Source: Erysipelotrichia bacterium
GTDB lineage: Bacteria; Bacillota_I; Bacilli_A; Erysipelotrichales; Erysipelotrichaceae
Length of the DNA: 24,733 nucleotides
Direction of reading: 5' to 3'
NCBI GenBank assembly: GCA_009929095.1
Contig: SABF01000006.1
Coordinates: 1 to 24,733 of the forward strand
The notes beneath the pieces were generated by a model. The model did no database searches and was not told the DNA's origin. It saw only the letters and a list, made by a program, of their open reading frames with translations. Within the stretch, counting starts at the first letter, position 1. The number at the start of each line of letters is the position of its first letter. The position numbers and the translations under genes are program-made. Positions 2,431 through 24,733 of the stretch are shown one piece after another.

Positions 2431-2463
2431 TACATTAATTGATTTGCGAACGGGGAGAAGATG

Positions 2464-2949
2464 ATGGTTACTTTTAAGAAGAAGAATACATTCACCGAGG
2501 CGTATGCTGCAGTGCATGGAAAAATTATTGATATAGGGAGTGTAAAGGATCCGACTTTCGCACAGAAGATGATTGGAGACGGTATTGCCATAATACCGGA
2601 TCAAGGAATTGTAACTGCTCCGTTTGATGGGGTAATAATTCTAATTGCAGAAACACTGCATGCATTTGGGATTTGTTCAGAAGATGGTTTAGAAGTTCTG
2701 GTGCATATAGGTATCGATACGGTGAAGCGCAAGGGCGAAGGATTCCACTCATCAGTGCAAACAGGCAGCAGAGTAAAAAGAGGAGATAAAATCCTTGATT
2801 TTGATTACAAGCGTTTACTGGAAGATCATGTGGATTTGACAACGATGATGATTCTAACCAATGCGAACGGATATGATATTGAGGGGATGCAAAGAGAAGG
2901 TGTTACGGAAAATGAACCAATGTTTCTTTTTCGGAAAAGGGAACTATGA
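2464..2949 (+). CDS. PTS EIIA component, glucose-type (stand-alone)
   Basis: This is a single-domain EIIA of the Crr/glucose superfamily, 161 residues from this start. It takes phosphate from HPr on a histidine and passes it to an EIIB domain. Visible motifs are 'IPDQGIVTAPFDGVI', 'TLHAFGI' (conserved support His) and 'EVLVHIGIDTV' with the phosphorylated His, followed by 'GEGF'. The start was chosen at the second of two adjacent ATG codons (2461 and 2464), because GGGGAG at 2452-2457 is 6 bases from 2464 but only 3 from 2461. The stop TGA overlaps the next gene's ATG (ATGA), which suggests translational coupling. The permease two genes on carries only EIIC and EIIB, so this protein is its likely phosphate donor. 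Confidence 0.9.
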   Translation: MVTFKKKNTFTEAYAAVHGKIIDIGSVKDPTFAQKMIGDGIAIIPDQGIVTAPFDGVIILIAETLHAFGICSEDGLEVLVHIGIDTVKRKGEGFHSSVQTGSRVKRGDKILDFDYKRLLEDHVDLTTMMILTNANGYDIEGMQREGVTENEPMFLFRKREL

Positions 2950-3773: not shown

Positions 3774-3800
3774 GATTGTTACTGTAAGGCAGGCAAGACC
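3773..3800 (+). promoter_or_regulatory. Ribonucleic antiterminator (RAT), LicT/BglG type
   Basis: The sequence is GGATTGTTACTG (3773-3784), a short loop, then GCAGGCAAGACC (3789-3800). It differs from the well-known licS/bgl RAT pattern at one position of the 3' half (AAGACC for AAAACC) plus the variable loop. Its 3' bases 3795-3800 are also the left arm of the following terminator, giving the classic either/or arrangement. The first G is the last base of the antiterminator gene's TAG stop. Confidence 0.92.
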
Positions 3801-3839
3801 CAAAGAATGAAAAATCATTTCATTTATTGGGTCTTTCTT
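3795..3839 (+). terminator. RAT-controlled terminator between antiterminator gene and permease
   Basis: AAGACCCAA (3795-3803) pairs perfectly with TTGGGTCTT (3827-3835), and a T-rich tail follows (3832-3839). The loop contains a minor AATGA/TCATT hairpin. It overlaps the RAT by six bases, so a bound antiterminator should prevent it from forming. Confidence 0.9.
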
Positions 3840-3869
3840 CATATAGGAAGAGAAAGGGAGGAATTATTT

Positions 3870-5441
3870 ATGAAGAAAAGTCTAGAAAAGTTTACAAAAG
3901 TGATGATTCAGCCATTGATGTATCTGTCAGTGGTGGGAATTGTCATGGTGCTGGGGGCATTGCTTACAAACACCACACTGCAAGGTATTCTACCGTTTTT
4001 AAACTGGTATCCAATTAAACTATTCGGTAATCTGGTCTACAACTGTCTGATGGTTATCATCAACAACTTAAGTGCAGTATTCATTATTGGTATTGCTGCA
4101 GCAATGGCCAAGAAAGAAAAACAACATGCAGCATTGATTGGATTTATGTCCTATCTGATGTATCTGACTGCGAGCAACACAGTTCTTACAATGAACGGTA
4201 CTCTTGCAGAAGCAAGTGCTTTCCTGGGGTTGATTGGAACCGGACAGTCAAATATTCTTGGCATTCAGAACGTGGATATGAGCGTATTTGGAGGGATACT
4301 GCTTGGGCTGATTACGGGTTTTATTTATAACAAGACTTGTGATAAACAGTTTAAAGGTTCTATGCAGATCTATTCGGGGGCTCGTTTCTCATTTTTCTGC
4401 ATGATCTGGGTTGCAATGGCATTTGGTGTTGTAACAACATATGTGTGGCCTTATGCTCAGCAACTGATCTCTTCACTTGCTTCAGTGATTAAGAACACCG
4501 GCACATTTGGGCTGTTCCTATATGGAATGCTTGAACGCCTGTTGATTCCGACAGGCCTGCATCATCTGATCTATACGCCGTTTCAGTTTTCGGATCTTGG
4601 CGGAGTATTGACAGTTAATGGATCATCGTATGCAGGGGCATATTCAATAGTTATGGCAGAGATGAATATGCCTGATGTGGCGAGATTCTCTGATAGCATT
4701 TATTACATGGCAATCGGGTTTACGAAGATGTTCGGTTATGTAGGTATTGCTTTGGCATTTATTTATACTGCATACAAGAAAAATAAGAAACGTGTAAAGA
4801 GTATGATGATTCCATTAACTATATCTGCATGCCTTGCCAGCATTACTGAACCGATTGACTTTATGTACTGTTTCGCTGCGCCGGTGCTGTTCTTTGTTCA
4901 CTCATGTATTGCAGGCCTGTTCATCGCTCTGCTAAAAGTGTTTGATGTAACTGCATTCTGCGGCGGTAATCTGATTGCATCAACTCTTATGAATGTCATT
5001 GTTGGCGTAGACAAAACACATTATCCGATGATGTATCTATTAGGATTCATTGAGATCATTGTCTACTTCATCGTATTTACGTTCCTAATCAAGAAGTTCA
5101 ATATGCATACTCCTGGCCGTGAAGAAGAAAGCATAGAAATGGCAATAGACGGTATTGATACTCAATCAAGCGATGTAGTACCAGTAAAAGAAATATCTAT
5201 TTCTGAAGGCATTGACAGTCTGATAAAGGGACTGGGAGGCAAGGAAAATATTATCAGTGTAGAAAATTGCTTCACCAGACTCCGTGTATCGATAAAGGAT
5301 CCTGAAAAGGTTGATGAAGGTCTAATAAACAAAATGGCTAACAGCGGAATTGTCAGGGACAATACTGATATTCAGATCGTATTTGGCCTTCAGGTCAATT
5401 CTATTAAAACAGAAGTTGAAAAAGCACTTGAGATTAACTGA
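3870..5441 (+). CDS. PTS EIICB permease, alpha-glucoside (maltose-type)
   Basis: This 523-residue membrane permease belongs to the glucose/maltose PTS superfamily. The N-terminal EIIC domain (about 1-411, many hydrophobic spans) holds 'LIPTGLHHLIYTPFQF' (P227-H232) and the substrate-site motif 'ITEPIDFMYCF' (E327). A polar linker (about 412-446) leads to an EIIB domain with phospho-cysteine C467 in 'ENCFTRLRVSI'. It lacks EIIA, which is encoded separately at 2464. The start ATG 3870 has AGGGAGG 8 bases upstream. An in-frame ATG at 3807 was rejected because it lies inside the terminator hairpin and adds no family sequence. The neighbouring GH4 enzyme points to an alpha-glucoside such as maltose as the substrate. 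MalP, MalB, GlvC and AglA are the closest named relatives, but the exact sugar cannot be read from sequence. Confidence 0.92.
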   Translation: MKKSLEKFTKVMIQPLMYLSVVGIVMVLGALLTNTTLQGILPFLNWYPIKLFGNLVYNCLMVIINNLSAVFIIGIAAAMAKKEKQHAALIGFMSYLMYLTASNTVLTMNGTLAEASAFLGLIGTGQSNILGIQNVDMSVFGGILLGLITGFIYNKTCDKQFKGSMQIYSGARFSFFCMIWVAMAFGVVTTYVWPYAQQLISSLASVIKNTGTFGLFLYGMLERLLIPTGLHHLIYTPFQFSDLGGVLTVNGSSYAGAYSIVMAEMNMPDVARFSDSIYYMAIGFTKMFGYVGIALAFIYTAYKKNKKRVKSMMIPLTISACLASITEPIDFMYCFAAPVLFFVHSCIAGLFIALLKVFDVTAFCGGNLIASTLMNVIVGVDKTHYPMMYLLGFIEIIVYFIVFTFLIKKFNMHTPGREEESIEMAIDGIDTQSSDVVPVKEISISEGIDSLIKGLGGKENIISVENCFTRLRVSIKDPEKVDEGLINKMANSGIVRDNTDIQIVFGLQVNSIKTEVEKALEIN

Positions 5442-5458
5442 GAAAAGGAGATCACAAA

Positions 5459-6811
5459 ATGATTATTGCGATAGTAGGCGGAGGAAGTACATTTACTCCG
5501 GGAATTGTAAAGTCAGTTGCGCTTCGCAAAGATGAATTGGATGTCAATGAAATCAGACTGTTTGATATTGATAAAGAACGGCAGGATAAAGTCGCAGTGG
5601 TTGTGGACTGGATTCTACACAAAGAATTGAAAACAGACATTAAACTTACGGTGACATGCGATGAGAGAGAAGCATATACAGACGCAAGTTTCATTTTTGC
5701 ACAGATGAGAGTCGGTAAATATGCAATGCGTGAACAGGATGAAAAGATTCCACTTAGACATGGGTGCGTGGGGCAGGAAACATGTGGATGCGGAGGTATG
5801 GCATATGGCATGAGGACGATCAATCCAATGATTCATGTGATTGATTCTGTAGAAAAGTATGCAGCGAAAGACCATTGGATTCTGAATTATTCAAATCCAG
5901 CTGCAATTGTTGCGGAAGCATGCCGCAAACTCAGACCGAATGCCCGTATTATCAACATCTGTGATATGCCGATCGCGATCATAGATATGATTGCTCAGTC
6001 ATTGAATATTCCCGACTATACAAAGATCGAATATAACTATTTTGGATTGAATCACTTTGGGTGGTTTACTTCTATAACATATGAAGATCGAGATATACTC
6101 AAAGAAATTAAGTCGTATGTAGAAGAAAAGAAAATCCTACTTCCGCAGACATATATCGATGCAATTGAAGCACATAAGAAGGTCAATGACCGCCATGCAC
6201 AATCGTCATGGAATCATGTTTGGCAGTCAGTATATACTATGCTGCAGCTATTTCCGGAATATCTGCCTAATACATATCTGAACTACTATCTGCTTGCTAA
6301 AGAAGCGGTCGAGTGTTCGAATCCGGAGCATACTCGAGCAAATGAGGTCATTGAAACAAGAGAGAAGAAACTGTTTGAAGGGATTGATCATTATCTAAAA
6401 ACAGGTGTTGTGGATAAAGATACATTTTATGCCGGTGCACATGGCAACTGGATCAGTGATCTTGCAGTAGCATTAAGGGATGATACGCGTCAGAAATTTC
6501 TTGTCATTGTTGAAAATCGAGGCACAATTCCTAATATGCCATATGATGCAATGGTAGAAGTGCCTGCGTATATAGGAAAAAATGGTCCGGAAGTTATTAC
6601 GCAGAATCCCGTTCCGCTGTTCCAGCAGGGTCTGATGACACAGCAGGTTATCTGTGAAAAGCTGATTGTTGAAGGATGCACAGAAGGAAGCTATGAGAAA
6701 GTTCTGGAAGCTTTCACTTTAAATAAGACGGTGCCCAGTGCAACAGTGGCTAAAGAAATACTGGATGAAATGATTGAAGTGAATAAGGATTACTGGCCCG
6801 AGCTAAAGTAA
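5459..6811 (+). CDS. glvA: 6-phospho-alpha-glucosidase, glycoside hydrolase family 4
   Basis: The 450-residue GH4 enzyme is colinear with Bacillus GlvA/MalA and Fusobacterium MalH. It uses NAD+ and a divalent metal to open disaccharide 6'-phosphates to glucose 6-phosphate plus the other sugar unit in the cytosol. Visible features are a Rossmann nucleotide loop 'GGGSTFTPG' near residue 7, 'VGQETCG' (104-110), 'NYSNPAA' (143-149), and the metal-ligand pair C168 in 'CDMP' and H199 in 'GLNHFGW'. The CDMP form is the signature of alpha- rather than beta-specific GH4 members. It starts 17 bases after the permease stop with AAAGGAG upstream, and a terminator follows, so it is the last gene of the operon. 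It supplies the catabolic step for the sugar brought in by the EIICB permease. Confidence 0.94.
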   Translation: MIIAIVGGGSTFTPGIVKSVALRKDELDVNEIRLFDIDKERQDKVAVVVDWILHKELKTDIKLTVTCDEREAYTDASFIFAQMRVGKYAMREQDEKIPLRHGCVGQETCGCGGMAYGMRTINPMIHVIDSVEKYAAKDHWILNYSNPAAIVAEACRKLRPNARIINICDMPIAIIDMIAQSLNIPDYTKIEYNYFGLNHFGWFTSITYEDRDILKEIKSYVEEKKILLPQTYIDAIEAHKKVNDRHAQSSWNHVWQSVYTMLQLFPEYLPNTYLNYYLLAKEAVECSNPEHTRANEVIETREKKLFEGIDHYLKTGVVDKDTFYAGAHGNWISDLAVALRDDTRQKFLVIVENRGTIPNMPYDAMVEVPAYIGKNGPEVITQNPVPLFQQGLMTQQVICEKLIVEGCTEGSYEKVLEAFTLNKTVPSATVAKEILDEMIEVNKDYWPELK

Positions 6812-11206: not shown

Positions 11207-12307
11207 ATGTTTCGTTCCTTTATTAAAAAATTGAATTCGGCTGTTTTCAATGAGCATCCTGAGGAGATTCAAAAACGAAACCTCATCGGAATGAGCCAGT
11301 TATTATTGATCACTGTTCTGGTTGCTGCAGTAATGGTTATTTCAATGTGTTTCCTTGGGCTTGGCATATCATTAGGGGAATTGATTTTTCTGGCTGTCTG
11401 CTATGTGATCTGCTATCTGTTTTACAGATATATAGTAAAAACCGGTCGAGGCAATTCCACGATCGTTATTTACTGTATGAGTGCACTGATGCTCATTTCG
11501 GTCATCTTCCGTGACAATATCACGATGCCAGACCGACTGACGTTCTTCTTTCAGATTATTCTGATGGCGGCCCCGGTTTATATTCTGGACAGGCCAAGAA
11601 ATGTTGTGCTGTTCTCTGCTGCAATGAGCGGTATTTATCTGATTGTGATGTATCTCTTCAAAAATCCATCTCTGTTTACTTATGAAATTGAATGTCTGGT
11701 CATGGCATTGCCTGCTTCTCTTGGCGTCACAGTCTTTGTGCTGACAATGAGAATTCAGGACCTTGAGAATGAGGTTTCACTGAAACTGGTTTCTGAACAT
11801 GATGCGCTGACCAGTATTCTCAATCGCGGCGGCGGAGAAGGAAAGATAAGAGAATATCTGAGCCGCGGAGTATGCGGTGCATTCTTCCTTATGGATGTAG
11901 ATAATTTCAAATCAATCAATGATGTATACGGACATTCCCGCGGAGATGAAGTGCTGGAGCAGGCAGCCGCAAGAATAAAGGCGGTATTCCGAACTGAAGA
12001 TATTGTGATGCGAATGGGCGGCGATGAGTTCATCGTATATGCACCAAGCATGGTGGCGGCAGACAGAGTCAAGTTCAAGATCAGCGAAGTCAGACAGAGC
12101 ATCAGCAGAATGTCACTGGAAGGCTGCCCGGATGTTCATATTACCGTATCGATCGGCTGCATTATTAATAAGACTTCTTATACGAGCTATGATGAAGTGT
12201 TCAGCAAGGCCGACAATCTTCTGTATGAAGCAAAGCGGAATGGCAAAAACACCAGTGCAATCCGGATGCTGTACAACCATGGCGGTGAAAACAAAATGGA
12301 ATCCTGA
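11207..12307 (+). CDS. Membrane diguanylate cyclase (GGDEF)
   Basis: The 366-residue protein has six predicted membrane spans (about 27-50, 56-74, 84-101, 111-127, 132-151, 161-180). A short helix (182-197) leads to a C-terminal GGDEF domain. 'DALTSILNR' (199-207) opens the catalytic domain, 'DVDNFKSINDVYGHSRGD' carries the metal and guanine-site residues, and the active loop is an intact 'GGDEF' at 271-275. Five residues before it is R262-T-E-D265, the RxxD inhibitory site that binds product c-di-GMP. It should therefore make c-di-GMP from two GTP at the membrane and be feedback-inhibited. No EAL, HD-GYP or PilZ partner lies in the window. ATG 11207 has an ideal AGGAGG 5 bases upstream. The sensory input of the six-span region is unknown. 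Confidence 0.92.
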   Translation: MFRSFIKKLNSAVFNEHPEEIQKRNLIGMSQLLLITVLVAAVMVISMCFLGLGISLGELIFLAVCYVICYLFYRYIVKTGRGNSTIVIYCMSALMLISVIFRDNITMPDRLTFFFQIILMAAPVYILDRPRNVVLFSAAMSGIYLIVMYLFKNPSLFTYEIECLVMALPASLGVTVFVLTMRIQDLENEVSLKLVSEHDALTSILNRGGGEGKIREYLSRGVCGAFFLMDVDNFKSINDVYGHSRGDEVLEQAAARIKAVFRTEDIVMRMGGDEFIVYAPSMVAADRVKFKISEVRQSISRMSLEGCPDVHITVSIGCIINKTSYTSYDEVFSKADNLLYEAKRNGKNTSAIRMLYNHGGENKMES

Positions 12308-12638
12308 TGACCCCCGATCTGCTGATCCTGAGAATCAAGAGAACCTTTGAATGAATTCCTCTCTATAAAGTTTCCTGCTGCCGCAGATATTCCGCTACGC
12401 ATGCAAGCTGGCCATGAACAGCGGTGATAGAAATCACTCTTTCTTCATGGATATAAATAACTCTCCTATCATTGTGATTCTATGTCTGATCATTGCTTTT
12501 AATGATTCAGTTAAGCCATGAAATCGATAGACCAGTGACTGACGATACGGAGCCGGATCAGTTTGCCTCATTTGGATCTCAATGCATCTGCCGCACGAGC
12601 TTCATGATCCGGGAAATTGAAATGAGTCAAATCTTCTA
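12308..12638. other. Non-coding stretch between the cyclase gene and the pyr promoter
   Basis: No convincing gene is seen. A nested hairpin lies at 12413-12449: outer CATGAA (12413-12418) with TTCATG (12444-12449), inner GTGAT (12424-12428) with ATCAC (12433-12437) followed by TCTTTCTT. The inner part could act as a weak terminator for the diguanylate cyclase gene. The rest holds scattered short repeats only. Confidence 0.45.
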
Positions 12639-12666
12639 TGGACATCTGGCGCACCCGTGCTATAAT
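12639..12666 (+). promoter_or_regulatory. Promoter of the pyrimidine operon
   Basis: -35 TGGACA (12639-12644, five of six consensus bases), 16-base spacer, -10 TATAAT (12661-12666) with an extended TG at 12658-12659. Transcription should start near 12673, giving a leader of about 110 bases before pyrB. Confidence 0.82.
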
Positions 12667-12687
12667 CACTTGGATCAAAACTGAATC

Positions 12688-12769
12688 GGACACCTGGAAG
12701 GCGGCCAACAACAATTACCTGCATGTCAGCAATGCAGCCTTCGGGAATGTCCTGGGGGCTGTATTTTTT
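12688..12769 (+). promoter_or_regulatory. pyr operon transcription attenuator
   Basis: Two exclusive folds are visible. The terminator is an 11-bp hairpin (12735-12745 with 12751-12761, five-base loop, G-U pairs included) followed by TATTTTTT ending at 12769. The antiterminator pairs GGACA (12688-12692) with TGTCC (12748-12752), CCT (12693-12695) with GGG (12743-12745), and GAAGGC (12697-12702) with GCCTTC (12737-12742), about 14 bp in all. It sequesters the whole left arm of the terminator. A small hairpin CTGCAT/ATGCAG (12719-12724, 12732-12737) fits inside the antiterminator loop. The structures are clear in sequence. That UMP/UTP status controls them is inferred from the genes downstream. 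The conserved CAGAGA of PyrR-binding loops was not found. Confidence 0.75.
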
Positions 12770-12783
12770 CTGGAGGATGGAAA

Positions 12784-13653
12784 ATGAAGGATCTGCTTCG
12801 TCTCAGCAATCTAAGCACAGAAGAAATTATCCGTATTCTTGATACTGCGAAGGAGTGCAAAGAAGGAAAGCACAGAGATTCATGCACCGGAAAGGTTGTT
12901 GCCAATTGTTTCTTTGAACCAAGCACCAGAACGCAGTACAGTTTCAATACTGCTGAATTGAGACTTGGCTGCCGTGTCATCAGTTTCAATGCGGAGGCTT
13001 CTTCCATTCAGAAAGGTGAATCATTCTATGACACGCTGAAGACCTTTGAAAGCTTTGGTGTCGATGCTCTGGTAATCAGATCCAGAGAAAATGAGTACTA
13101 CAGTCAGCTGAAAGGATTCAGATGCCCAATTCTCAATGCCGGAGACGGCACAAAGGATCACCCGACACAGTCGCTGCTGGATCTGATGACAATCCGTGAG
13201 GAATTCGGCGGATTTGAGGGACTGAAGATCGCCATGGTCGGGGATGTTCATTACTCCCGGGTAGTACATTCCAATATCGAGGCTATGACACGTCTTGGCA
13301 TGAAATGCTATGTCTCAGGACCGAAGGAATACCGGGAATCAGATCTTGACTTCATTGATTTTGATGAAGCAGTCAGAACCATGGATATTATTATGCTTCT
13401 GAGAGTACAGAACGAACGGCATGAAAAACAGATGGAACTCTCTGTTCCTGAGTACCATAAATATTATGGGATGACCATGGATCGGGTTCATGCCATGAAA
13501 GAGAAAAGCATCATCATGCATCCGGCACCGTTCAATCGCGGTGTTGAACTGTGTGACGAAGCAGTAGAATGCGATAAGAGCAGAATTTTCCCGCAGATTG
13601 CCAACGGCGTATATGTCCGCATGGCAGTGCTGCAGAGAGCGTGGGAGGACTGA
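12784..13653 (+). CDS. pyrB: Aspartate carbamoyltransferase catalytic subunit
   Basis: The 289-residue enzyme joins carbamoyl phosphate and aspartate to give N-carbamoyl-aspartate, the committed step of UMP synthesis. The carbamoyl-phosphate loop 'FFEPSTRTQYSF' has S47-T48-R49-T50. 'DGTKDHPTQSLLD' carries H126-P127-T128-Q129, 'LLRVQNERH' is the aspartate-domain motif, and 'MHPAPFNRGVEL' begins at M245. It is slightly shorter than the usual 300-310 residues but complete. GGAGG at 12772-12776 lies 7 bases before ATG 12784 and just after the attenuator T-run, so terminator readthrough directly exposes this site. No regulatory pyrI is present. It is first in an eight-gene operon, and the pyrC start follows 3 bases after the stop. 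Confidence 0.97.
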   Translation: MKDLLRLSNLSTEEIIRILDTAKECKEGKHRDSCTGKVVANCFFEPSTRTQYSFNTAELRLGCRVISFNAEASSIQKGESFYDTLKTFESFGVDALVIRSRENEYYSQLKGFRCPILNAGDGTKDHPTQSLLDLMTIREEFGGFEGLKIAMVGDVHYSRVVHSNIEAMTRLGMKCYVSGPKEYRESDLDFIDFDEAVRTMDIIMLLRVQNERHEKQMELSVPEYHKYYGMTMDRVHAMKEKSIIMHPAPFNRGVELCDEAVECDKSRIFPQIANGVYVRMAVLQRAWED

Positions 13654-13656
13654 ACA

Positions 13657-14922
13657 ATGCCATTCCTTCTGAGACATGGACAGGTTTACTATAACGGAGA
13701 TTTCATCCGGCAGGATTTATATGTCAGCGAGGATGGAATGGCAGCAGCGGCTGATGCCAATGCTGCAGATGCTGAAGCAATTGACTGCACAGGTTTTCAT
13801 ATTCTGCCCGGGCTGATTGATCCGCATGTTCATCTGAGAGAACCGGGTCATTCTGAAAAGGAAACAATTGCCAGCGGTACAGCCGCAGCAGCGCATGGCG
13901 GTATTTCCACCGTATTTGCAATGCCGAATCTGAATCCGGTTCCGGATTCCGTGGAACATCTGTCGGCAGAAGAAAACATCATTGATCGGGATGCAGTCAT
14001 CGGTACAGTACCGGTGGCTTCAATCACCCGTTCTCAGCAGGGGGAGGCGGTATCTGATATCGCCGCCCTTTCTATGCATGCATTCCTGTTCTCAGATGAC
14101 GGAGTCGGAGTTCAGTCAGAAGAGATCATGGAACAGGCTATGACAGAAGTGAAGAAACATAATGGTGCAATTCTGGCACATTGTGAAGACAATCGGCAGG
14201 TGGCAGCAGGCTGGCGCATCAATGCCGGACATAAAGCAGAAGAGCTTGGACTGATTGGCGTCAATAATGAAAGTGAAGCTAGCGAAGTAAGAAGAAATAT
14301 CGAACTGGTCAGAAAAACGGGCTGTCAGCTTCATATCTGCCATGTTTCCGCAGGAGAAAGCATTGCGGCGATCCGCCAGGCAGTTCGGGAAGGACTGCCA
14401 GTTACCGCGGAAGCAACCCCGCATCATCTGCTGCTCTGTGAGGATGATATTGACAGTGACAGAGGATGCTGGCGCATGAATCCGCCGCTGAGATCCAGAG
14501 AGGATCAGCTTGCATTGATAGAAGCCATCCGTGATGGAACAATCACAATGATCGCAACTGATCATGCTCCGCATACAAGAGCAGAAAAAGAAACGGATCT
14601 GGCGCATGCATTGAACGGAATTGTCGGACTGGAAACTTCCTTTCCGCTGATCTATACGGAACTGGTCAGGCCGGAAATCATCACGATGAAGCAGTGCATT
14701 GAACTGATGAGCACCAATGCAGAAAAGACCTTCAAACTGAAGGAAAGAGGATACTGCCGCAGCGATCTCAGTATCTGGGATCTGAAGGAACAGTACCGCA
14801 TTGATCCGGAAGAGTTCGCATCAATGGGCAGAAGTACGCCATTTGCCGGCAGAAGCGTATACGGCAGATGTGTGATGACGATTCATAACGGAAAGATCGC
14901 TTACAGGAGAATGGGAAAATGA
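13657..14922 (+). CDS. pyrC: Dihydroorotase (class I, PyrC/DHOase)
   Basis: The 421-residue zinc amidohydrolase cyclises carbamoyl-aspartate to dihydroorotate. The HxH zinc motif is in 'LPGLIDPHVHLREPG' (H57, H59). 'FSDDGVGV' (D147-D148) supplies the bridging aspartate seen in class I enzymes in place of a carbamylated lysine, and 'AHCEDN' and 'CHVSAGES' supply further histidine ligands. 'ATDHAPHT' has the catalytic D302. Length and motif order are normal for class I. GGGAGGA lies upstream of ATG 13657, inside the pyrB end. The stop TGA overlaps the carA ATG (ATGA), so the two are probably translationally coupled. Confidence 0.97.
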   Translation: MPFLLRHGQVYYNGDFIRQDLYVSEDGMAAAADANAADAEAIDCTGFHILPGLIDPHVHLREPGHSEKETIASGTAAAAHGGISTVFAMPNLNPVPDSVEHLSAEENIIDRDAVIGTVPVASITRSQQGEAVSDIAALSMHAFLFSDDGVGVQSEEIMEQAMTEVKKHNGAILAHCEDNRQVAAGWRINAGHKAEELGLIGVNNESEASEVRRNIELVRKTGCQLHICHVSAGESIAAIRQAVREGLPVTAEATPHHLLLCEDDIDSDRGCWRMNPPLRSREDQLALIEAIRDGTITMIATDHAPHTRAEKETDLAHALNGIVGLETSFPLIYTELVRPEIITMKQCIELMSTNAEKTFKLKERGYCRSDLSIWDLKEQYRIDPEEFASMGRSTPFAGRSVYGRCVMTIHNGKIAYRRMGK

Positions 14923-16007
14923 AACGAAAACTCGTGCTTCAGGACGGAACGGAAATGATTGGAACTGCCTTTGGCTCTATGAATGAGACAGTAGCGGAAC
15001 TGGTATTCAACACATCCATGGTGGGCTATCAGGAAATCCTCTCTGATCCTTCCTATACCGATCAGATGATCAACATGACATATCCGCTGATTGGCAACTA
15101 TGGCATCATCGATGAGGACTTTGAATCAAGACTGGTTGGTCCGAAGGCACTCATTGTACGCGAGTACAATGACAAGCCTTCCAATTTCCGCTATACCAAG
15201 ACACTGAATGAGTACCTGGAAGAAAACGGAACTGCCGGGATTTCTCATATTGATACCAGAATGCTGACAAGGATCATCCGTGATCATGGTTCCATGCCGG
15301 CAATTCTCTGCGACCTGAATGTATCCAGAGAGGATGCATTGAAGAAGATTGCTGAAACACCAATGCCGCATGATCAGGTATCCAGAGTTTCCTGCAAAAA
15401 GATCTGGTATTCCCGCTGTGCCAATCCGAAGTATTCGGTAGTGGCAGTAGACTGCGGCATGAAGCTGAATATTGTAAGACAGCTCAATGCCCGCGGATGC
15501 AATGTCACAATCGTTCCCTATAACACTTCAGCAGATAAGATCCGCTCGCTGAATCCGGATGGCGTATTCTTCTCCAACGGTCCGGGTGATCCTCAGGATG
15601 TGACGGAGGTGATTGCTCTGATTAAGGAAATTCAGGGCACTCTGCCGATCTTCGGCATCTGCCTTGGCCATCAGATGATTGCGCTGGCCAACGGCCTTGA
15701 AACGTACAAGATGAAGTTCGGACACCGCGGTGCCAATCACCCGGTCATGAATCTTGATATCGGCAGGATAGAGATCACTTCACAGAATCACAGCTATGCT
15801 GTCAGGATGCCTGAAGAAAACAGCGGCCCGATTCATATCACTCATATCAATCTGCTGGATCAGACAGTGGAAGGACTGCGCATTGAAGATCAGGATATCT
15901 TCAGTGTGCAGTATCACCCGGAAAGTGCTCCTGGTCCGGAAGACAGCCGCTGCCTGTTTGAACAGTTCACCGCCAGCATGGCGAAGAGAAAAGGAGGAAC
16001 GCACTGA
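14919..16007 (+). CDS. carA: Carbamoyl-phosphate synthase small (glutaminase) subunit
   Basis: The 362-residue subunit hydrolyses glutamine and channels ammonia to the large subunit. The N-terminal half carries '[20 protein letters not shown]' and '[10 protein letters not shown]'. The C-terminal class I glutamine amidotransferase domain has the nucleophile C248 in 'FGICLGHQM' and H333-P334-E335 in '[11 protein letters not shown]'. It starts within the pyrC stop (4-base overlap) and its own TGA shares a base with the carB ATG (TGATG), as expected for an equimolar pair. This copy lies in the pyrimidine operon (pyrAA in Bacillus usage). Whether a separate arginine-specific copy exists elsewhere cannot be seen. 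Confidence 0.97.
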
Positions 16008-19000
16008 TGCCAAAGAGAACAGACATTCATCGAATCCTCGTTATCGGCTCCGGCCCGATTGTTATCGGTCAGGCCGCTGAATTTGACTACGCCGGCACAC
16101 AGGCATGTCTCTCACTGAGAGAAGAAGGCTATGAAGTCATTCTGATCAACTCCAATCCGGCAACCATCATGACGGATACGCATATTGCCGACAAGGTGTA
16201 TATGGAACCGCTGACGCTGGAGTATGTGTCTCGTATCATTCGAAAGGAACGTCCGGATGCGATTCTTCCTACCTTGGGCGGCCAGACCGGCTTGAATCTG
16301 GCAATGCAGCTGAGTACAAAAGGTGTTCTGGATGAATGCCAGTGTGAAATTCTCGGAACGCCGTTTGCCTCGATTGAAAAAGCAGAGGACAGACTGCTCT
16401 TTAAAGAACTGTGCGAATGCATCAGCGAGCCAACACTTCCTTCAATGATTGCCCATACGATTGAAGAGGTTGCTGACTGTGCAAATAAGATCGGATATCC
16501 GGTTATTCTGCGTCCGGCTTATACGCTTGGCGGTACCGGCGGCGGTTTTGCAGACAATGAAGAGGAAGTCAGAGAAGTCGGCAAGAATGCACTGAAGCTT
16601 TCACCGGTTACTGAAGTGCTGGTAGAGCGTTCCATCAAGGGCTATAAGGAAATCGAATATGAAGTCATGCGTGACTCCAACGATACTGCCATTGTGATAT
16701 GCAACATGGAGAATATTGATCCGGTTGGCGTACATACAGGCGACTCCATGGTGGTGACTCCTTCTCAGACACTGTCCAACAAGGAGTATCAGCTGCTGAG
16801 AAATGCATCATTGAATATTATCCGTGCACTTGGCATCGAAGGTGGCTGCAACGTTCAGTTTGCTCTGGATCCATTCTCCTTTGACTACTATGTAATTGAA
16901 GTCAATCCGCGTGTATCCAGATCATCTGCCCTGGCATCAAAGGCCAGCGGCTATCCGATCGCCCGAGTCAGTGCCAAGATTGCCATCGGCATGCGTCTGG
17001 ATGAAATCAGAATCGCCAATACGTGTGCGGCATTTGAGCCTGCCCTGGATTATGTCGTAACCAAGATTGCCAGATTCCCGTTCGATAAATTCCCGAAAGC
17101 CGATCACTCTCTGAGTACGCAGATGAAGGCAACCGGGGAAGTCATGGCAATCGGCAGAACCATGGAAGAATCTCTGCTGAAGGCAGTGAGATCTCTCGAG
17201 ATCGGTGTCGATCATCTGTACATGGAGAAGTTTGATGACATGCCGACAGAAGAAATGCTGGAATTCATTAAGACTCCGACAGATGAACGTATCTTTGCGA
17301 TTGCCGAACTGTTCCGCCGCAAGACGGATATGATTCGAATTTACAACGCTACAAAGATAGACGTGTTCTTCCTGGATAAGATTCATCATATTGTTGCGGT
17401 GGAAGAACGGGTCAGAAATGATCCGTCTGAGAAAAATCTGATCAAGGCAAAGAAGTTCGGTTTCGGCGACCACTTCCTGGGGACGATCTATGGAAAGAGC
17501 GAGCCGGAAATGATTCGCTGGCGTCAGGAACTTGGCATTGAGCCGGTCTATAAAATGATTGATACATGCGCCAGCGAGTTCAGTGCCTATATACCTTACT
17601 TCTACTCTTCCTATGCAAAAGAAAATGAATCGATTGTATCAAAGAAGAAAAAGATCGTTGTGCTCGGTTCCGGTCCGATCCGCATCGGCCAGGGCGTGGA
17701 GTTTGACTACAGTACGGTGCATGCAGTCTGGACACTGAAGGAAGCAGGCTACGAAGCCATTGTCATCAACAATAACCCGGAGACAGTTTCCACAGACTAT
17801 ACCCTGAGTGACAAACTGTACTTTGAACCGCTGGATCTTGAAGATGTCATGAACATTCTGAATCTGGAGAAACCGGACGGAGTCATAGTATCACTTGGCG
17901 GACAGACCGCCATCAACCTGGCCGCTAAGCTGACCGAGATGGGCGTTCCCATCTGCGGTACTGATCAGGCCGCAATTGATAAGGCGGAAAACCGTGATTC
18001 CTTTGAACAGGTTTGCCATACCATCGGCATTCCGGAACCGGAAGGACAGGCAGTCACCAACATTGAAGACGGAGTCACTGCTGCCAGCCGCATCGGCTAT
18101 CCGGTGCTGGTAAGGCCTTCCTATGTGCTGGGCGGAAGAGCCATGCAGATTGTGAACAACGATGAAGAATTAAAAGAGTATCTGCTGGGTGCTGTCAAGA
18201 TTGATAAGGACCAGCCGGTGCTGGTAGATAAATATGTCAGCGGAATTGAAGTGGAAGTGGATGCCGTATGCGATGGCACAGATGTGCTGATTCCGGGAAT
18301 TATGCAGCTGGTTGAAGCGACCGGTGTGCATAGCGGCGACTCCATGAGCGTCTATCCGCCATACAGTCTGAGCGAACATGTCAGAGAGCTGATCAAGGAT
18401 TATACGGTGAAACTTGGCCTGGCAATCGGAATCCGCGGTCTGTTCAACATACAGTTCATCGTAGATGCCAATGATGAAGTATTTATTATTGAAGTCAATC
18501 CGAGATCAAGCCGCAGTGTACCGTTCATCTCTAAGAGCAGCGGTGTGCCGATGGCAGACATTGCGACTCGGGTTATGCTCGGTGAAACACTGAAGCAGCA
18601 GGGATACGGTACAGAAGTTCTGCCGCAGAAGAAACGCTGGTATGTAAAAACACCGGCATTCTCCTTCTCCAAGATTCACGGTCTCGATGCCTATCTGTCA
18701 CCGGAGATGAAGTCGACCGGTGAGGCAATCGGCTATGACGATACGCTGAACAGAGCACTGTATAAATCGCTGCAGGCAAGCAATCTGAGAGTGGTGAACT
18801 ATGGGACCATCTTTGTGACAATTGCAGATCGCGATAAGGATCGGGCAATTCCGCTGGTCAAGCGATTCTATGATCTCGGCTTCAACATTGAGGCAACTCA
18901 GGGAACAGCAGAAGCGCTGAAGGCGGCAGGGATCAGGACCAGAGCCAAGCGGAAGATCAGTGAGGGCTCTGACGAGATTCTGGATTCTATTCGCAAGGGT

Positions 19001-19183
19001 CATATCACCTACATTATCAATACGCTGAGCCCAAGCGATTCCGGCACTACCAGAGATGGCTACATGATCAGACGCACCGCAGTTGAAAACAATGTCACTG
19101 TCTTTACTTCACTGGATACTGTCAATGTGCTTCTGAATATTCTTGAGGAAATCACCATGCAGGTGAGCCCGATAGATCAGTGA
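16007..19183 (+). CDS. carB: Carbamoyl-phosphate synthase large subunit
   Basis: The 1058-residue synthetase makes carbamoyl phosphate from bicarbonate, ammonia and two ATP. The internal duplication is plain: '[20 protein letters not shown]' from residue 14 recurs as '[16 protein letters not shown]' from residue 554. Each copy is followed by an ATP-grasp domain ('[14 protein letters not shown]' in the first, '[14 protein letters not shown]' in the second) and by 'EVNPR(V/S)SRS' metal-binding strands. The last 130 or so residues form the MGS-like allosteric domain ('[13 protein letters not shown]', '[20 protein letters not shown]'), where UMP or ornithine acts in relatives. Length is normal. 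ATG 16007 uses AAAGGAGG upstream inside carA, and pyrK follows after a 7-base gap. Confidence 0.98.
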
Positions 19184-19190
19184 GGATGCG

Positions 19191-19940
19191 ATGAAGAAAG
19201 AAGAAATGTGTCTCATTGAACTGAATGAACCGATTGCACTGAATACATTCAGGATGGTGCTGAAGACAGATACTTCCTGGCTTGAGCATCCCGGTCAGTT
19301 TGTAAACATTCAGCTGCCGGGCAGATACCTCAGAAGGCCGATCAGCATCTGTGACTGGACCGATCATTCCATTACCCTAATCTACAAGACAGTCGGTGTC
19401 GGAACCAGAGAGATGTCAGTCATGCATGCAGGTGAAATGCTGAATGTGCTGACTGGCCTTGGCAATGGCTATGATACTGAAATAGCTGATGATCATCTTC
19501 TGGTCATCGGCGGCGGTGCCGGCATTCCCCCGCTGTATGGACTGACCAGAGAACTGCTGGCAAAAAAGAAACAGGTCGATGCCATCCTTGGCTTCAATAC
19601 CAAGGCGGAACTCTTCCTGCTGGAAGAGTTTAGGAAACTGGGCGCCAAGGTTCATCTGTGTACCGCAGACGGAAGCGCAGGAGCCAGAGGATTTGCAACA
19701 GACATCATGAAGCAGGAAGATCTGACCGGGATTCCCTACATGGCATGCGGACCGCTGCCGATGCTCAAGGCGGTATACAGGACTTCTGAAAGTCACGGAT
19801 GGATCTCACTGGAAGAACGGATGGGCTGCGGATTCGGCGCCTGCATGGGCTGCAGCTTCAAAACAGTAACCGGCTATAAGCGAATCTGCACTGATGGACC
19901 AATACTGCAAAGCGAGGAACTTCCATGGATGAACGACTGA
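19191..19940 (+). CDS. pyrK: Dihydroorotate dehydrogenase electron-transfer subunit
   Basis: The 249-residue iron-sulfur flavoprotein passes electrons from PyrDB to NAD+. The FAD-binding motif is 'RRPISICDW' (R49-P50-I51-S52) with 'YKTVGVGTREM'. The nucleotide-binding part is 'LLVIGGGAGIPPLYGL'. A [2Fe-2S] cluster is held by C213, C218, C221 and C233 ('MGCGFGACMGCSFKT' then 'RICTDGP'). With pyrD it forms the class 1B heterotetramer, typical of Gram-positive bacteria. GAGGATG lies just upstream of ATG 19191. The end overlaps the start of pyrD by 16 bases in another frame, which is consistent with coupled, equimolar synthesis. Confidence 0.97.
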   Translation: MKKEEMCLIELNEPIALNTFRMVLKTDTSWLEHPGQFVNIQLPGRYLRRPISICDWTDHSITLIYKTVGVGTREMSVMHAGEMLNVLTGLGNGYDTEIADDHLLVIGGGAGIPPLYGLTRELLAKKKQVDAILGFNTKAELFLLEEFRKLGAKVHLCTADGSAGARGFATDIMKQEDLTGIPYMACGPLPMLKAVYRTSESHGWISLEERMGCGFGACMGCSFKTVTGYKRICTDGPILQSEELPWMND

Positions 19941-20845
19941 AGACATCACTTGGCAGCTGGCAGCTGGATAATCCAGTCATGCCAGCAAGCGGAACATTCG
20001 GGTTTGGCTATGAATTCGCTCAGTTCTATGACCTGGATATGCTTGGATCCATGGCACTGAAAGGAACTACAGGCAAGGCCCGATTCGGCAACCCGACACC
20101 GCGCATTGCAGAATGTGATGAAGGAATGATCAACTCTGTCGGACTGCAGAATCCGGGAATTGATCATGTGATCAGTGAGGAACTGCCAAAGCTGAAGAAA
20201 GTATTCCATAAGCAGGCAATTGCCAATGTGGGCGGCTTCTCGGTTGAAGAATATGCCGAAGTGGCACAGAAGTTTGACCGGCAGGAGCAGATAGCTCTCT
20301 TGGAAATCAACGTATCATGCCCGAATGTATCGCATGGCGGAATGAGCTTTGGAACAGATCCGGGATGCCTGAAGCAGGTGATCGCAGCAGTTAAGAAAGT
20401 TACACACAAACCTGTCTATGCCAAGCTGACACCCAACGTCACAGATATCACGGCAATGGCAAAGGCGGCAGAAGAAGCAGGCGCCGACGGAATCAGTCTG
20501 ATCAATACCCTGCTTGGTTCAAGATTTGATCTGAAAACCGGCAAGCCGATCATTGCCAATGTCATGGGCGGCTTCAGCGGTCCGGCAGTTAAGCCGGTTG
20601 CACTCCGCATGGTGTATCAGGTATATGAAGCAGTGCATCTTCCGATCGTCGGAATTGGCGGAATCAGAAGTGCTGAGGATGTCATTGAGATGATGTCAGC
20701 CGGTGCCTCGGCAATTGAGATCGGTGCCCAGAACTGCACAGATCCCTATGCATGCATGAAAGTGATTCAGAATCTGATCCCGTTGATGGATCAGCTTGGT
20801 ATAGACAAGATCAGTGATGTGATCGGAAGGAGCCATAACAGATGA
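19925..20845 (+). CDS. pyrD: Dihydroorotate dehydrogenase, class 1B catalytic subunit
   Basis: The 306-residue FMN enzyme oxidises dihydroorotate to orotate. 'NPVMPASGTFGFG' opens the barrel, 'VGLQNPGID' is the family's FMN/substrate loop, and C132 in 'EINVSCPNVSHGG' is the catalytic base. The cysteine marks class 1, since class 2 enzymes use serine. 'AKLTPNVTDI', 'GGFSGPAVKPVALRMV' and 'GIGGIRSAEDV' supply the FMN-phosphate site. The pairing with pyrK makes this class 1B. GAGGAA precedes ATG 19925 inside pyrK. The stop overlaps the pyrF start (ATGA). Confidence 0.97.
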   Translation: MDERLKTSLGSWQLDNPVMPASGTFGFGYEFAQFYDLDMLGSMALKGTTGKARFGNPTPRIAECDEGMINSVGLQNPGIDHVISEELPKLKKVFHKQAIANVGGFSVEEYAEVAQKFDRQEQIALLEINVSCPNVSHGGMSFGTDPGCLKQVIAAVKKVTHKPVYAKLTPNVTDITAMAKAAEEAGADGISLINTLLGSRFDLKTGKPIIANVMGGFSGPAVKPVALRMVYQVYEAVHLPIVGIGGIRSAEDVIEMMSAGASAIEIGAQNCTDPYACMKVIQNLIPLMDQLGIDKISDVIGRSHNR

Positions 20846-21540
20846 AACGTGATGTAATTATCGCCTGCGACTTTTCAGACAAAAAGACCACCCTTGAGTT
20901 TCTTGATCAGTTCACCGGCCGAAAGCCATTTGTCAAAATCGGCATGGAGCTCTTCTATGCGGAAGGGCCGGAAATGGTACGTGAAATTAAGGCCAGAGGG
21001 CATCGGATATTTCTGGATCTGAAACTGCACGATATTCCGAATACCGTTTACAGAGCGATGAAGAATGTTGTTTCACTTGGCGTTGACCTGACCAATGTTC
21101 ACGCACTTGGCGGAATTGAAATGATGCAGGCTGCCCAGAAGGCAGTCAGCGAAGTGAATCCTGAGACACAGCTGATTGCGGTGACACAGCTGACTTCCAC
21201 TTCAGAAGAAAACATGCAGAAGGAACTGGGCATCTGCATGGGCATCAATGAGTCCATTGCCCGGCTGGCAAAGAATGCCAGAACGGCCGGACTTGCAGGT
21301 GTTGTATGCTCTCCGCTGGAAGCAGGACTTGTCAGAGATGCCTGCGGAGAAGGCTTCATCACAGTAACTCCTGGTATCCGATTTGCGGATGATGCGGCTT
21401 CAGATCAGAAGCGTATCACTACACCGCTGAAGGCAAAAGAAATCGGCAGCAGCCTCATCGTTGTCGGACGCCCCATTACCAAAGCGACGGATCCCGCTGC
21501 AGCATATGAGCGATGCATGAAAGAATTTGCGGAGGACTGA
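20842..21540 (+). CDS. pyrF: Orotidine 5'-phosphate decarboxylase
   Basis: The 232-residue cytosolic enzyme decarboxylates OMP to UMP, the last step of the pathway. 'VIIACDFSD' opens the barrel. The catalytic tetrad motif is 'FLDLKLHDIPNTV' with D59, K61 and D64. 'GVVCSPLEA' and 'TPGIRF' are family strands, and 'IVVGRPIT' carries the phosphate-gripping Gly-Arg. Length is typical for the short bacterial branch. The ATG overlaps the pyrD stop and pyrE begins 3 bases after its own TGA. Placing pyrF before pyrE is common in Gram-positive pyr operons. Confidence 0.97.
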   Translation: MKRDVIIACDFSDKKTTLEFLDQFTGRKPFVKIGMELFYAEGPEMVREIKARGHRIFLDLKLHDIPNTVYRAMKNVVSLGVDLTNVHALGGIEMMQAAQKAVSEVNPETQLIAVTQLTSTSEENMQKELGICMGINESIARLAKNARTAGLAGVVCSPLEAGLVRDACGEGFITVTPGIRFADDAASDQKRITTPLKAKEIGSSLIVVGRPITKATDPAAAYERCMKEFAED

Positions 21541-21543
21541 ACG

Positions 21544-22185
21544 ATGACAGACACAGGAAAACTGATTGCAGAAGATCTTCTCTCCATTCAGGCAGTATTT
21601 CTGAAGCCGGATGATCCATTCACCTGGGCAAGCGGAATCCATTCTCCTATTTATTGTGACAACCGTCTGACACTCTCAGATGTAAAAGTCAGAACAGATG
21701 TGGAAGATGCCATTGCGGCAGCGGTGAAGAAACACTTTCCGGAATGTGAAGCGCTGATGGGAACAGCCACAGCCGGAATTGCCCATGCGGCACTTGCGGC
21801 AGAACGCCTTGACCTGCCAATGGGCTATGTAAGATCCGGTGCCAAAGATCATGGCCGTAAAAATCAGATTGAAGGAAAATGTGAACCAGGTACGAAGGTC
21901 GTGGTCATTGAAGATCTGATTTCCACTGCCGGCAGTTCTCTGGAAGTTGTTGATATCCTGAGAGAGGCTGGCGCAGAAGTTCTTGGCATGGTAGCCATCT
22001 TCACCTATGGCATGAAGAAGGGCATTGATCGCATGAAGGAAGCCAATCTGACCTGGTATACGCTGAGCAGTCTGGATGAACTGGCAGAAGTAGCGGTCAA
22101 AGAGGGATATATCAAACCGGAAGATCAGCAGAAACTGCTGCAGTTTCGCGACAATCCAGCCGATGAATCCTGGATGAAGAAGTAA
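21544..22185 (+). CDS. pyrE: Orotate phosphoribosyltransferase
   Basis: The 213-residue transferase makes OMP from orotate and PRPP. 'DPFTWASGIHSPIYCDNR' is the family's N-terminal signature. The PRPP loop is 'VVVIEDLISTAGSS', with E123-D124 and T128 in the expected places. 'YVRSGAKDHGRKNQIEG' is the flexible catalytic loop with conserved Lys and His. GGAGGA lies upstream of ATG 21544 in the pyrF end. It is the last gene of the operon: the next gene has its own promoter, and a small hairpin (22193-22212) begins 8 bases after the stop. Confidence 0.97.
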   Translation: MTDTGKLIAEDLLSIQAVFLKPDDPFTWASGIHSPIYCDNRLTLSDVKVRTDVEDAIAAAVKKHFPECEALMGTATAGIAHAALAAERLDLPMGYVRSGAKDHGRKNQIEGKCEPGTKVVVIEDLISTAGSSLEVVDILREAGAEVLGMVAIFTYGMKKGIDRMKEANLTWYTLSSLDELAEVAVKEGYIKPEDQQKLLQFRDNPADESWMKK

Positions 22186-22195
22186 TTGAGAGAAG

Positions 22196-22209
22196 TGTAA
22201 TCGCTTACA
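22196..22209 (+). promoter_or_regulatory. cre-like palindrome (CcpA operator candidate)
   Basis: TGTAATCGCTTACA is an exact match to the catabolite-responsive-element pattern TGNAANCGNWNNCA and is a near-perfect palindrome. It ends one base before a TTGACA (22211-22216), a possible upstream promoter, and lies about 70-80 bases before the main predicted pflB start. The same bases form a hairpin (22193-22200 with 22205-22212) that might instead help end the pyr transcript. Confidence 0.65.
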
Positions 22210-22242
22210 TTTGACAGGCGCAGAATCAGTCGATGAAATCAC

Positions 22243-22270
22243 TTGCTTTTATTCTGTTCCACTTTATAAT
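22243..22270 (+). promoter_or_regulatory. Promoter of pflB
   Basis: -10 TATAAT (22265-22270) is perfect. The best -35 is TTGCTT (22243-22248), 16 bases away and only partly consensus. The start would be near 22277, which is exactly the 5' end of the riboswitch P1 stem. A second candidate uses TTGACA at 22211-22216 with TGAAAT at 22234-22239 (17-base spacer). Confidence 0.7.
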
Positions 22271-22276
22271 TTCAGT

Positions 22277-22378
22277 ATCATACGACTGACGGAAGTGGAA
22301 TTGACCACATGAAGTATGATGATAGAGATCTTGAGCCGACCGTCTGGGCATACTCTGCCTGGAGAGGTTGGCTTTTTA
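22277..22378 (+). promoter_or_regulatory. ZTP riboswitch (pfl motif) with expression-platform terminator
   Basis: P1 is a perfect 7-bp stem, ATCATAC (22277-22283) with GTATGAT (22314-22320). P2 is GTGG (22295-22298) with CCAC (22305-22308). The conserved ACTGNCGG core is at 22285-22292 and the hallmark CCGNCTGGGCA is at 22340-22350. GACGG (22288-22292) can pair with CCGTC (22340-22344) as the pseudoknot. Relative to the common GGCGG/CCGCC form this is a compensatory change. A terminator follows: GCCGACC (22335-22341) with GGTTGGC (22366-22372) and TTTTT at 22373-22377. Its left arm shares 22340-22341 with the pseudoknot, so ligand binding should favour readthrough. In characterised members the ligand is ZTP or ZMP, the signal of 10-formyl-tetrahydrofolate shortage. 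Confidence 0.88.
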
Positions 22379-22426
22379 TATATTTCATCTCCAGTGTATA
22401 TATCAGAAATCGGGAGGATGAAAACC

Positions 22427-24679
22427 ATGAATGCATGTCAGCAGTGGGATGGATTTACCGGACGTCTCTGGAAGGAAGAAATCAATGTCAGAGACTTCAT
22501 TCAGCACAATTACAGACAGTACGACGGAGACGCTTCATTCCTGGAAGGCCCAACAGAGGCAACCGACAGACTCTGGCTTGAAGTACAGAAGCTTCAGAAG
22601 GAAGAGCGTGCCAAAGGCGGCGTGCTCGATATGGAAACTGAAGTTGTCAGCAGCCTGACTGCCTATGGGCCTGGCTATATCAAAGAGGAACTGAAGTCTC
22701 TGGAAAAGATTGTCGGGCTTCAGACGGATAAGCCGCTGAAGCGGGCATTCATGCCGTACGGCGGAATCAAGATGGCTGAGCAGGCATGTGAGACCTATGG
22801 CTATCATCCATCGGCAGATCTGCATCATATCTTTACAGAATATGTAAGAACTCATAATCAGGCTGTGTTTGATGTCTATACACCGGAAATGAAGAAGGCA
22901 AGACACAGTCACATTATCACCGGTCTTCCGGATACTTACGGAAGGGGCAGAATTGTCGGTGACTACAGAAGAATTGCCCTGTATGGGATTGATCACCTGA
23001 TTGCTGAGAAGCAGAGAGACTACGTCAACAGCGAAGATGGATCCATGACAGATGAAGTGATTCGTCAGCGTGAAGAAATCGCTCTGCAGATACAGGCACT
23101 GAAGGATATGATGAAGATGGCTGCTGTGTATGGCTGTGATATCTCTCAGCCTGCAGGCACTGCAGGAGAAGCAGCACAGTGGCTGTACTTCGGGTATCTT
23201 GCGGCAGTTAAGACACAGAATGGCGCTGCCATGAGTGTCGGCCGCATTTCCACATTCCTCGACATCTATATCCAGAGAGATCTGGACAGTAAGCTGATAA
23301 CGGAATCCGAAGCACAGGAGATCATTGATCATCTGTGTCTGAAGTTCCGCATGATCAAATTTGCCCGTATTCCTAGCTATAATCAGCTGTTCAGCGGTGA
23401 TCCGGTATGGGCAACACTGGAAGTTGGCGGTTCGGGTGTTGACGGCCGCTCCATGGTTACCAGAACCTGTTTCCGCTTCCTCCATACACTGGAAAACATG
23501 GGTCCGAGTCCGGAGCCGAATCTGACGGTTCTGTATTCGAAGCTTCTGCCGGAAGGATTCAGAAAGTATGCGGCGGAGATATCCATCCGCACCAGTTCTA
23601 TTCAATACGAAAATGATGATGTCATGAAACCGGTATGGGGTGATGACTATTCCATCTGCTGCTGTGTATCTGCTACTCAGACCGGCAAGGAAATGCAGTT
23701 CTTCGGAGCCCGCGCCAATCTTGCCAAGTGTCTTCTGTATGCCATTAATGGCGGTGTCGATGAGAAGATGCATGAGCAGGTAGGACCTGCCTATGCACCG
23801 GTTTCCACTGATGTCCTTGAATATGATGATGTCATGAAGAAGTTTGATGTCATGCTGGAATGGCTTGCTCGCCTGTATGTCAACACACTGAACATGATTC
23901 AGTATATGCATGATCGCTATTACTATGAAGCCGCTGAGATGGCGCTCATTGATACCGATGTAAGACGCACTTTCGCAACCGGGATTGCCGGGTTCAGTCA
24001 TGTGGTGGATTCTCTCAGTGCAATCAAATATGCAAAGGTAACCTGTATCCGTGACGAATCCGGACTGGCTGCGGATTATGACGTGCAGGGAGACTTTCCA
24101 AAATATGGCAATGATGATGATCGGGCAGATGAGATTGCTCTCTGGCTTCTGCGTACCTTCATCGAGAAGATCAAGCGACATCCGACCTATCGAAACAGTG
24201 AAGCGACCACTTCCATTCTGACCATTACATCTAATGTTGTTTACGGAACATATACCGGCATGACACCGGATGGCAGAAAGGCATGGACACCATTTGCCCC
24301 GGGCGGAAGTCCCAGCTATGGTGCAGAACAGAATGGTCTCTTGGCTTCGCTGAACAGCACTGCCAAACTTCCTTATGCATGGGCTCTGGATGGCATTTCC
24401 AATACGCAGACCATCAATCCCGGTGCACTGGGACATGGGGAAGAGGAACAGAGCAGTCATTTGGTTCAGGTGCTGAACGGATACTTCGGTCAGGGTGCTC
24501 ATCATCTGAATGTGAATGTATTTGGTCTTGAAAAACTCAGGGACGCTATGGAACACCCGGAAAAGGAAGAATATGCCAATTTCACAATCCGGGTATCCGG
24601 CTATGCAGTGAAGTTCATCGATCTGACCCGTCAGCAGCAGCTTGATGTCATTTCAAGGACCTGCCATGAGCGGATCTGA
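22427..24679 (+). CDS. pflB: Pyruvate formate-lyase (formate C-acetyltransferase)
   Basis: The 750-residue glycyl-radical enzyme converts pyruvate and CoA to acetyl-CoA and formate under anaerobic conditions. The N-terminus '[19 protein letters not shown]' and 'FLEGPTEAT' match true PFL rather than dehydratase relatives. The active-site cysteines are C412-C413 in '[12 protein letters not shown]', followed by '[15 protein letters not shown]'. The radical site is G725 in '[10 protein letters not shown]' near the C-terminus. GGGAGG at 22412-22417 lies 9 bases before ATG 22427. In-frame ATGs at 22316 and 22418 were rejected: the first lies inside the riboswitch and the second touches the ribosome site. 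A third cysteine (C411) replaces the Ala usual before the catalytic pair. The riboswitch suggests formate is needed here for folate one-carbon supply. The pflA start overlaps its end. Confidence 0.97.
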
Positions 24680-24733
24680 GAACATCGGACTGATTCATTC
24701 ATTGGAAACATTCGGCTGTGCAGACGGTCCGGG
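24666..24733 (+). CDS. pflA: Pyruvate formate-lyase activating enzyme, 5' part
   Basis: An ATG at 24666 opens a frame that runs off the window. It reads '[20 protein letters not shown]' followed by 'GPG', the typical N-terminus of PFL-activating radical SAM enzymes ('IHSxExFGxxDGPG'). The CxxxCxxC cluster motif would lie beyond the window end. It overlaps the pflB end by 14 bases, and AAGGA lies 6-7 bases upstream, so it is probably coupled to pflB. It would install the glycyl radical on G725 of PFL using SAM. Confidence 0.88.

Follow-up and report, generated by a model that had tools for sequence, protein, structure and literature searches.

The closest described systems are the pfl RNA motif as a class and the pfl riboswitch of Clostridium beijerinckii. 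In Weinberg et al. 2010 (PMC2864571), the 5 commonest gene partners of the pfl RNA motif are purH, fhs, pfl, glyA, and folD, and the terminator overlaps the 3′ region of the aptamer; the identification of the ZTP ligand is recounted in a 2020 review (PMC7266159). Strand displacement in the C. beijerinckii pfl switch was described by Bushhouse and Lucks in 2023 (PMC10085676): an invader strand displaces P3 and the pseudoknot and builds the terminator, the ligand blocks this displacement, and the invader is imperfect, with bulges and G-U pairs.

We analyzed a 24,733-nucleotide stretch (the window) of contig SABF01000006.1 from an Erysipelotrichia bacterium (assembly GCA_009929095.1), in which a ZTP riboswitch of the pfl motif precedes pflB. 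Comparison between this element and the described systems revealed that (i) relative to the class as set out in PMC2864571, it has the same aptamer, an overlapping terminator, and a pfl partner, with no difference in kind; (ii) its pseudoknot has an A-U pair where the Rfam RF01750 consensus has G-C; (iii) as in C. beijerinckii, the predicted invader takes up P3 and the pseudoknot, and the stem is imperfect in both; and (iv) the species and the invader sequence differ from those of C. beijerinckii, and the window element is known here from its sequence. The gene pairing, logic, and mechanism are already published in PMC2864571 and PMC10085676, with the class and the pairing described since 2010. 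The riboswitch in front of pflB is confirmed as real, ordinary, and well formed, and gives a known class another well-supported example, from an Erysipelotrichaceae-type bacterium, which is of value for annotation and not a surprise. A literature search for the ZTP riboswitch in Erysipelotrich- bacteria found no paper in the library searched.

Structure and covariation of the aptamer

A covariance-model search, which the original prediction had proposed as a check, yielded a significant match to the ZMP-ZTP family RF01750 at 22272–22356 of the plus strand with 59.4 bits (gathering score 39; E = 1.6e-7), covering the full model (1–86 of 86). No other Rfam family reached its gathering score in the whole window, and this is the single RF01750 match in the genome (G000; 2.14 Mb in 507 contigs, 74.6% complete). 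The aptamer is composed of the following elements:

22272..22356 (+): ZMP/ZTP riboswitch aptamer (pfl motif), Rfam RF01750, full length
22277-22283/22314-22320 (+): P1, AUCAUAC/GUAUGAU, a perfect 7-bp helix enclosing the core and P2
22285-22292 (+): core, ACTGACGG, inside P1
22295-22298/22305-22308 (+): P2, GUGG/CCAC
22335-22337/22347-22349 (+): P3, GCC/GGC, from the Rfam match and the alignment
22288-22292/22340-22344 (+): pseudoknot, GACGG/CCGTC, from the Rfam match and covariation

P1, P2, and the conserved core ACTGNCGG, by which members of RF01750 are recognized, are all present, as are P3 with the CCGNCTGGGC block and the pseudoknot to the core. The ZTP/pfl assignment of the original prediction is upheld by the score and by the covariation in relatives, and the perfect P1 (7 of 7 base pairs), P2, core, and pseudoknot that it listed could all be traced; its 5′ boundary, 22277, has to be moved, since the aptamer match begins 5 bases earlier, at 22272.

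Covariation was assessed in an alignment of 24 aptamers, which comprised the window itself, 22 of the further 29 loci that the family search returned, and the congener G177 (L005, L012, L019, L021, L022, L026, and L030 were excluded). Standard pairs occupied 99.1% of cells, and 10 of the 19 pairs were changed on both sides. None of 500 shuffles had as high a covariation score; 4 of the 5 measures were attained by no shuffle at all, and the fifth, the number of further pair types, by 42 of the 500. When the partner columns were offset by 1 to 3 positions, pairing fell to 31–46%. P1 was paired in 97.6% of cells, with changes on both sides at all 7 pairs, and the window and its sister differ in P1 by a matched change (AUCAUAC/GUAUGAU versus AUCGUAC/GUACGAU). 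P2, and likewise P3 with the pseudoknot, were paired in 100% of cells. One of the 5 pseudoknot pairs was changed on both sides (AU in 20 sequences, GC in 4), and the other 4 were invariant. The window shares 27 invariant columns with its 23 relatives.

A broader collection of 56 aptamers was used to follow the form of the pseudoknot (the best 50 of 60 family-search matches and 6 from genus searches, some of which are near-copies): GACGG/CCGTC occurred in 42, GGCGG/CCGCC in 13, and the G-U hybrid GGCGG/CCGTC in 1. The window pseudoknot, described originally as departing from a frequent GGCGG/CCGCC form, does carry a matched pair change from the Rfam consensus, but its own form is that of the majority of these relatives (42 of 56). 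Relative to the covariance model, strict text patterns missed 4 of 57 loci in one set and picked out exactly the model's 4 of 80 in another. In relatives of genus code g50 (L126–L129, L122, and L030), the aptamer matches span 95–100 bases, longer than the others; in L030, as seen in the alignment, extra bases sit between the core and P2.

Terminator and proposed switching

The expression platform and the signals around it are as follows, with the promoter and the ribosome-binding site read directly from the DNA:

22333..22377 (+): intrinsic terminator, hairpin 22333-22374, loop 22351-22355, T tract 22373-22377 (five T)
22243..22270 (+): likely sigma-70 promoter, weak -35 TTGCTT 22243-22248, 16-nt spacer, perfect -10 TATAAT 22265-22270
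22412..22417 (+): pflB ribosome-binding site, GGGAGG

In the predicted fold, the lower stem of the terminator pairs GAGCCGACC (22333–22341) with GGTTGGCTT (22366–22374), the upper stem pairs TCTGGGCA (22343–22350) with TGCCTGGA (22356–22363), and between the two lie bulges of 1 base (22342) and 2 bases (22364–22365). The region 22330–22378 folds at −26.1 kcal/mol compared with a shuffle mean of −12.65 (z −4.87), and 0 of 200 shuffles folded as well. The stem consumes both P3 strands and 4 of the 5 bases of the pseudoknot strand, an overlap far larger than the 2 bases originally claimed. A generic consensus and pattern scan of 21900–22500 called neither a terminator nor a promoter, because the stem is bulged, while the scan needs an unbroken one, and because the −35 box fits at only 3 of 6 positions.

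The −10 box at 22265–22270 places the RNA start at approximately the 5′ strand of P1. In the congener loci L132, L137, and L130, the aptamer start is preceded at 7 or 8 bases by TATAAT, which has TTGACT 16 nt upstream of it, and each locus has an overlapping terminator. A TATAAT-like box (at most 1 mismatch) was found near 26 of 56 aptamer starts compared with 274 of 2,800 random spots.

For the comparison of terminators across the 56 aptamers, an overlapping terminator was defined as a hairpin of −10 kcal/mol or lower that ends at a T run and takes up at least 3 pseudoknot bases or 3 of the 4 bases of GGGC, which holds the P3 3′ strand; the gene partner was the first downstream match to 8 reference proteins, and in the control the 3′ flank was permuted letter by letter, 5 times per aptamer. 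Such a terminator followed 24 of the 27 pflB-linked aptamers (the window and near-copies included), with 3 of the 27 lacking one, versus 1 of 135 with shuffled flanks; for all partners together, the numbers were 36 of 56 versus 4 of 280. It was also found at 7 of 7 fhs-linked, 2 of 5 formate/nitrite-transporter-linked, 1 of 1 pflA-linked, 1 of 1 AICAR-transformylase-linked, and 1 of 2 purC-linked aptamers, and at none of the 8 purE-linked, the 4 IMP-cyclohydrolase-linked, or the single unassigned aptamer. Among the relatives examined, terminator use is thus split by partner, mostly present with pflB and fhs and absent with purE and IMP cyclohydrolase.

We consider the element a transcription-termination ON switch for pflBA, with a probability of roughly 0.93. 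By folding and by comparison, the terminator and P3 with the pseudoknot are mutually exclusive; ON-switch logic follows because the terminator forms only by breaking aptamer P3 and the pseudoknot, which lends support to the switching direction given in the original prediction and agrees with the published pfl RNAs. Ligand, binding, switching direction, and physiology are presumably those of the published class. By this analogy, the RNA would begin at about P1 from its own promoter; when ZMP/ZTP is low, the invading strand (22356–22374) would pair across the aptamer's 3′ half, taking up P3 and the pseudoknot strand; the terminator would form, and RNA polymerase would halt at the T tract, short of pflB. 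When 10-formyl-THF is short, ZMP/ZTP would build up, the bound aptamer would keep P3 and the pseudoknot and block the terminator, and pflBA would be made; pyruvate formate-lyase would then yield formate, which Fhs could convert to 10-formyl-THF.

A genuine aptamer might instead act mainly on translation: the bound RNA would expose the ribosome-binding site of pflB, and the hairpin would be a poor terminator. The short T tract (five T, of which the stem can pair two) and the silence of the simple scan would suit this arrangement, as would the purE (0 of 8) and IMP-cyclohydrolase (0 of 4) loci at which no overlapping terminator was found, which indicate that other modes exist in the family. We judge it improbable, since a very stable hairpin runs directly into the T tract, 24 of 27 pflB leaders share this layout, and the ribosome-binding site starts 38 bases past the hairpin and lies outside it.

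Downstream genes and the purine context

The genes downstream of the switch are as follows:

22427..24679 (+): pflB, formate C-acetyltransferase (pyruvate formate-lyase), 750 aa
24666..24733 (+): probable start of pflA (PFL-activating enzyme), cut by the contig end

The identity of pflB as the regulated gene, named as such in the original prediction, was established by NCBIfam TIGR01255 (1097.5 bits, cut-off 994.2), with PF02901 and PF01228 also matched, and pflB is a partner in purine, formate, or formyl-THF metabolism as is characteristic of the class. The closest named record to the protein belongs to a Solobacterium sp. MAG (86%), and a megablast search of 22240–24733 against phage records gave no match. 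No Pfam match was obtained for the 22-residue pflA stub; 15 of its residues align with the N-terminus of L123 PflA (E = 0.008), a full-length relative of which (46% identity) lies directly 3′ of pflB in the sister locus L031.

Directly upstream, at 12784–22185 of the window, lies a pyrB-pyrC-carA-carB-pyrK-pyrD-pyrF-pyrE operon named by best NCBIfam matches, with that of pyrK below the curated cut-off; the sister has pyrE at the equivalent place (86% identity), and no Rfam element was found before pyrB (12300–12800, E up to 1). Farther upstream, at 2461–6811, the translations of open reading frames resemble a PTS IIA protein, a BglG-type antiterminator, a PTS IIBC permease, and a 6-phospho-glycosidase.

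The genome has purC, purB, and fhs; therefore, the last steps to ZMP exist and formate can be converted to 10-formyl-THF. The proposed link of pyruvate formate-lyase to purine and folate status fits these genes and the gene partners in relatives. HisF was not found over its cut-off in G000, and purine synthesis is therefore the likely source of ZMP. AICAR transformylase was not found in this 74.6% complete assembly; it is present in 58 of 70 genus genomes, including G223, G177, and G222. The pur cluster of G000 stops at a contig end in purM, and in the sister G223 a 395-aa transformylase lies approximately 1.9 kb beyond (purE, purF, purM, purN, and IMP cyclohydrolase were named from translated open reading frames for this comparison). 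The missing enzyme looks like an assembly gap, and in view of the contig edge and the G223 synteny we set aside its absence as a sign of a switch without ligand.

That the aptamer is a relic no longer able to sense ZMP in this species, followed by an ordinary terminator that separates the pyr operon from pflB, is very improbable: the unseen transformylase and the sporadic occurrence across genus members (8 of 70 genomes) would fit such a loss, but the 27 invariant columns common to the window and 23 relatives, the matched P1 change from the sister, and the presence of the ZMP-making genes purC and purB speak against it.

Distribution in the genus and family

The riboswitch occurs in 8 of the 70 genus genomes searched, and 19 of the 70 have a PflB match (E ≤ 1e-100). 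It accompanies only four of these 19 pflB copies (those of G000, G223, G177, and G222); among the other 15, the sequence of L146 begins approximately 119 bases before pflB, too little to judge. The remaining 4 genus riboswitches (G243, G197, G210, and G214) lie before purE, with purC next. Among the best 80 of 585 PflB loci, an aptamer was found at 4 (the sister L031, L076, L077, and L093; model E up to 1), a few of the 80 having only some 260–370 bases upstream. The aptamer and the −10 box are kept in the sister locus and 2 further congeners. In relatives, the class also precedes fhs, purE, purC, AICAR transformylase, IMP cyclohydrolase, and a formate/nitrite transporter.

The occurrence of pflB-linked riboswitches in 2 separate species pairs among the 19 copies, with 4 congeners using purE-purC, raises the possibility, which we hold to be doubtful on balance, that, in this genus, placing pflB under a ZTP riboswitch is a mobile regulatory option. 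If so, the riboswitch would have been repeatedly joined to or lost from pflB, so that formate supply entered and left the purine-stress regulon; here it would also gate readthrough from the pyr operon into pflBA.

The window PflB is 80–82% identical to Gemmiger/Faecalibacterium relatives versus 74–78% to 17 of the other 18 copies in the genus, and a quick pflB tree placed the copy with the former (SH-aLRT 95). The AU test rejected neither a single clade of all 19 genus copies (p = 0.466) nor one of a smaller set of 8 (p = 0.143); horizontal transfer of pflB from these relatives is not claimed.

Two further partners were observed in the family. A ZTP riboswitch precedes a stand-alone IMP cyclohydrolase at L006:773–1486, L018, L019, and L021 (PF07826 in L006, tblastn in the rest); no overlapping terminator was found at these loci, and control there may therefore be translational. 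In 5 family genomes a ZTP riboswitch precedes a formate/nitrite transporter (L013:1623–2225, L121:1351–1950, L022, L115, and L125), a pairing for which a literature search (ZTP riboswitch with formate transporter or FocA) found no paper in the library searched; the transporter was identified by PF01226 in L013 and L121 and by tblastn similarity to L013 in L022, L115, and L125.
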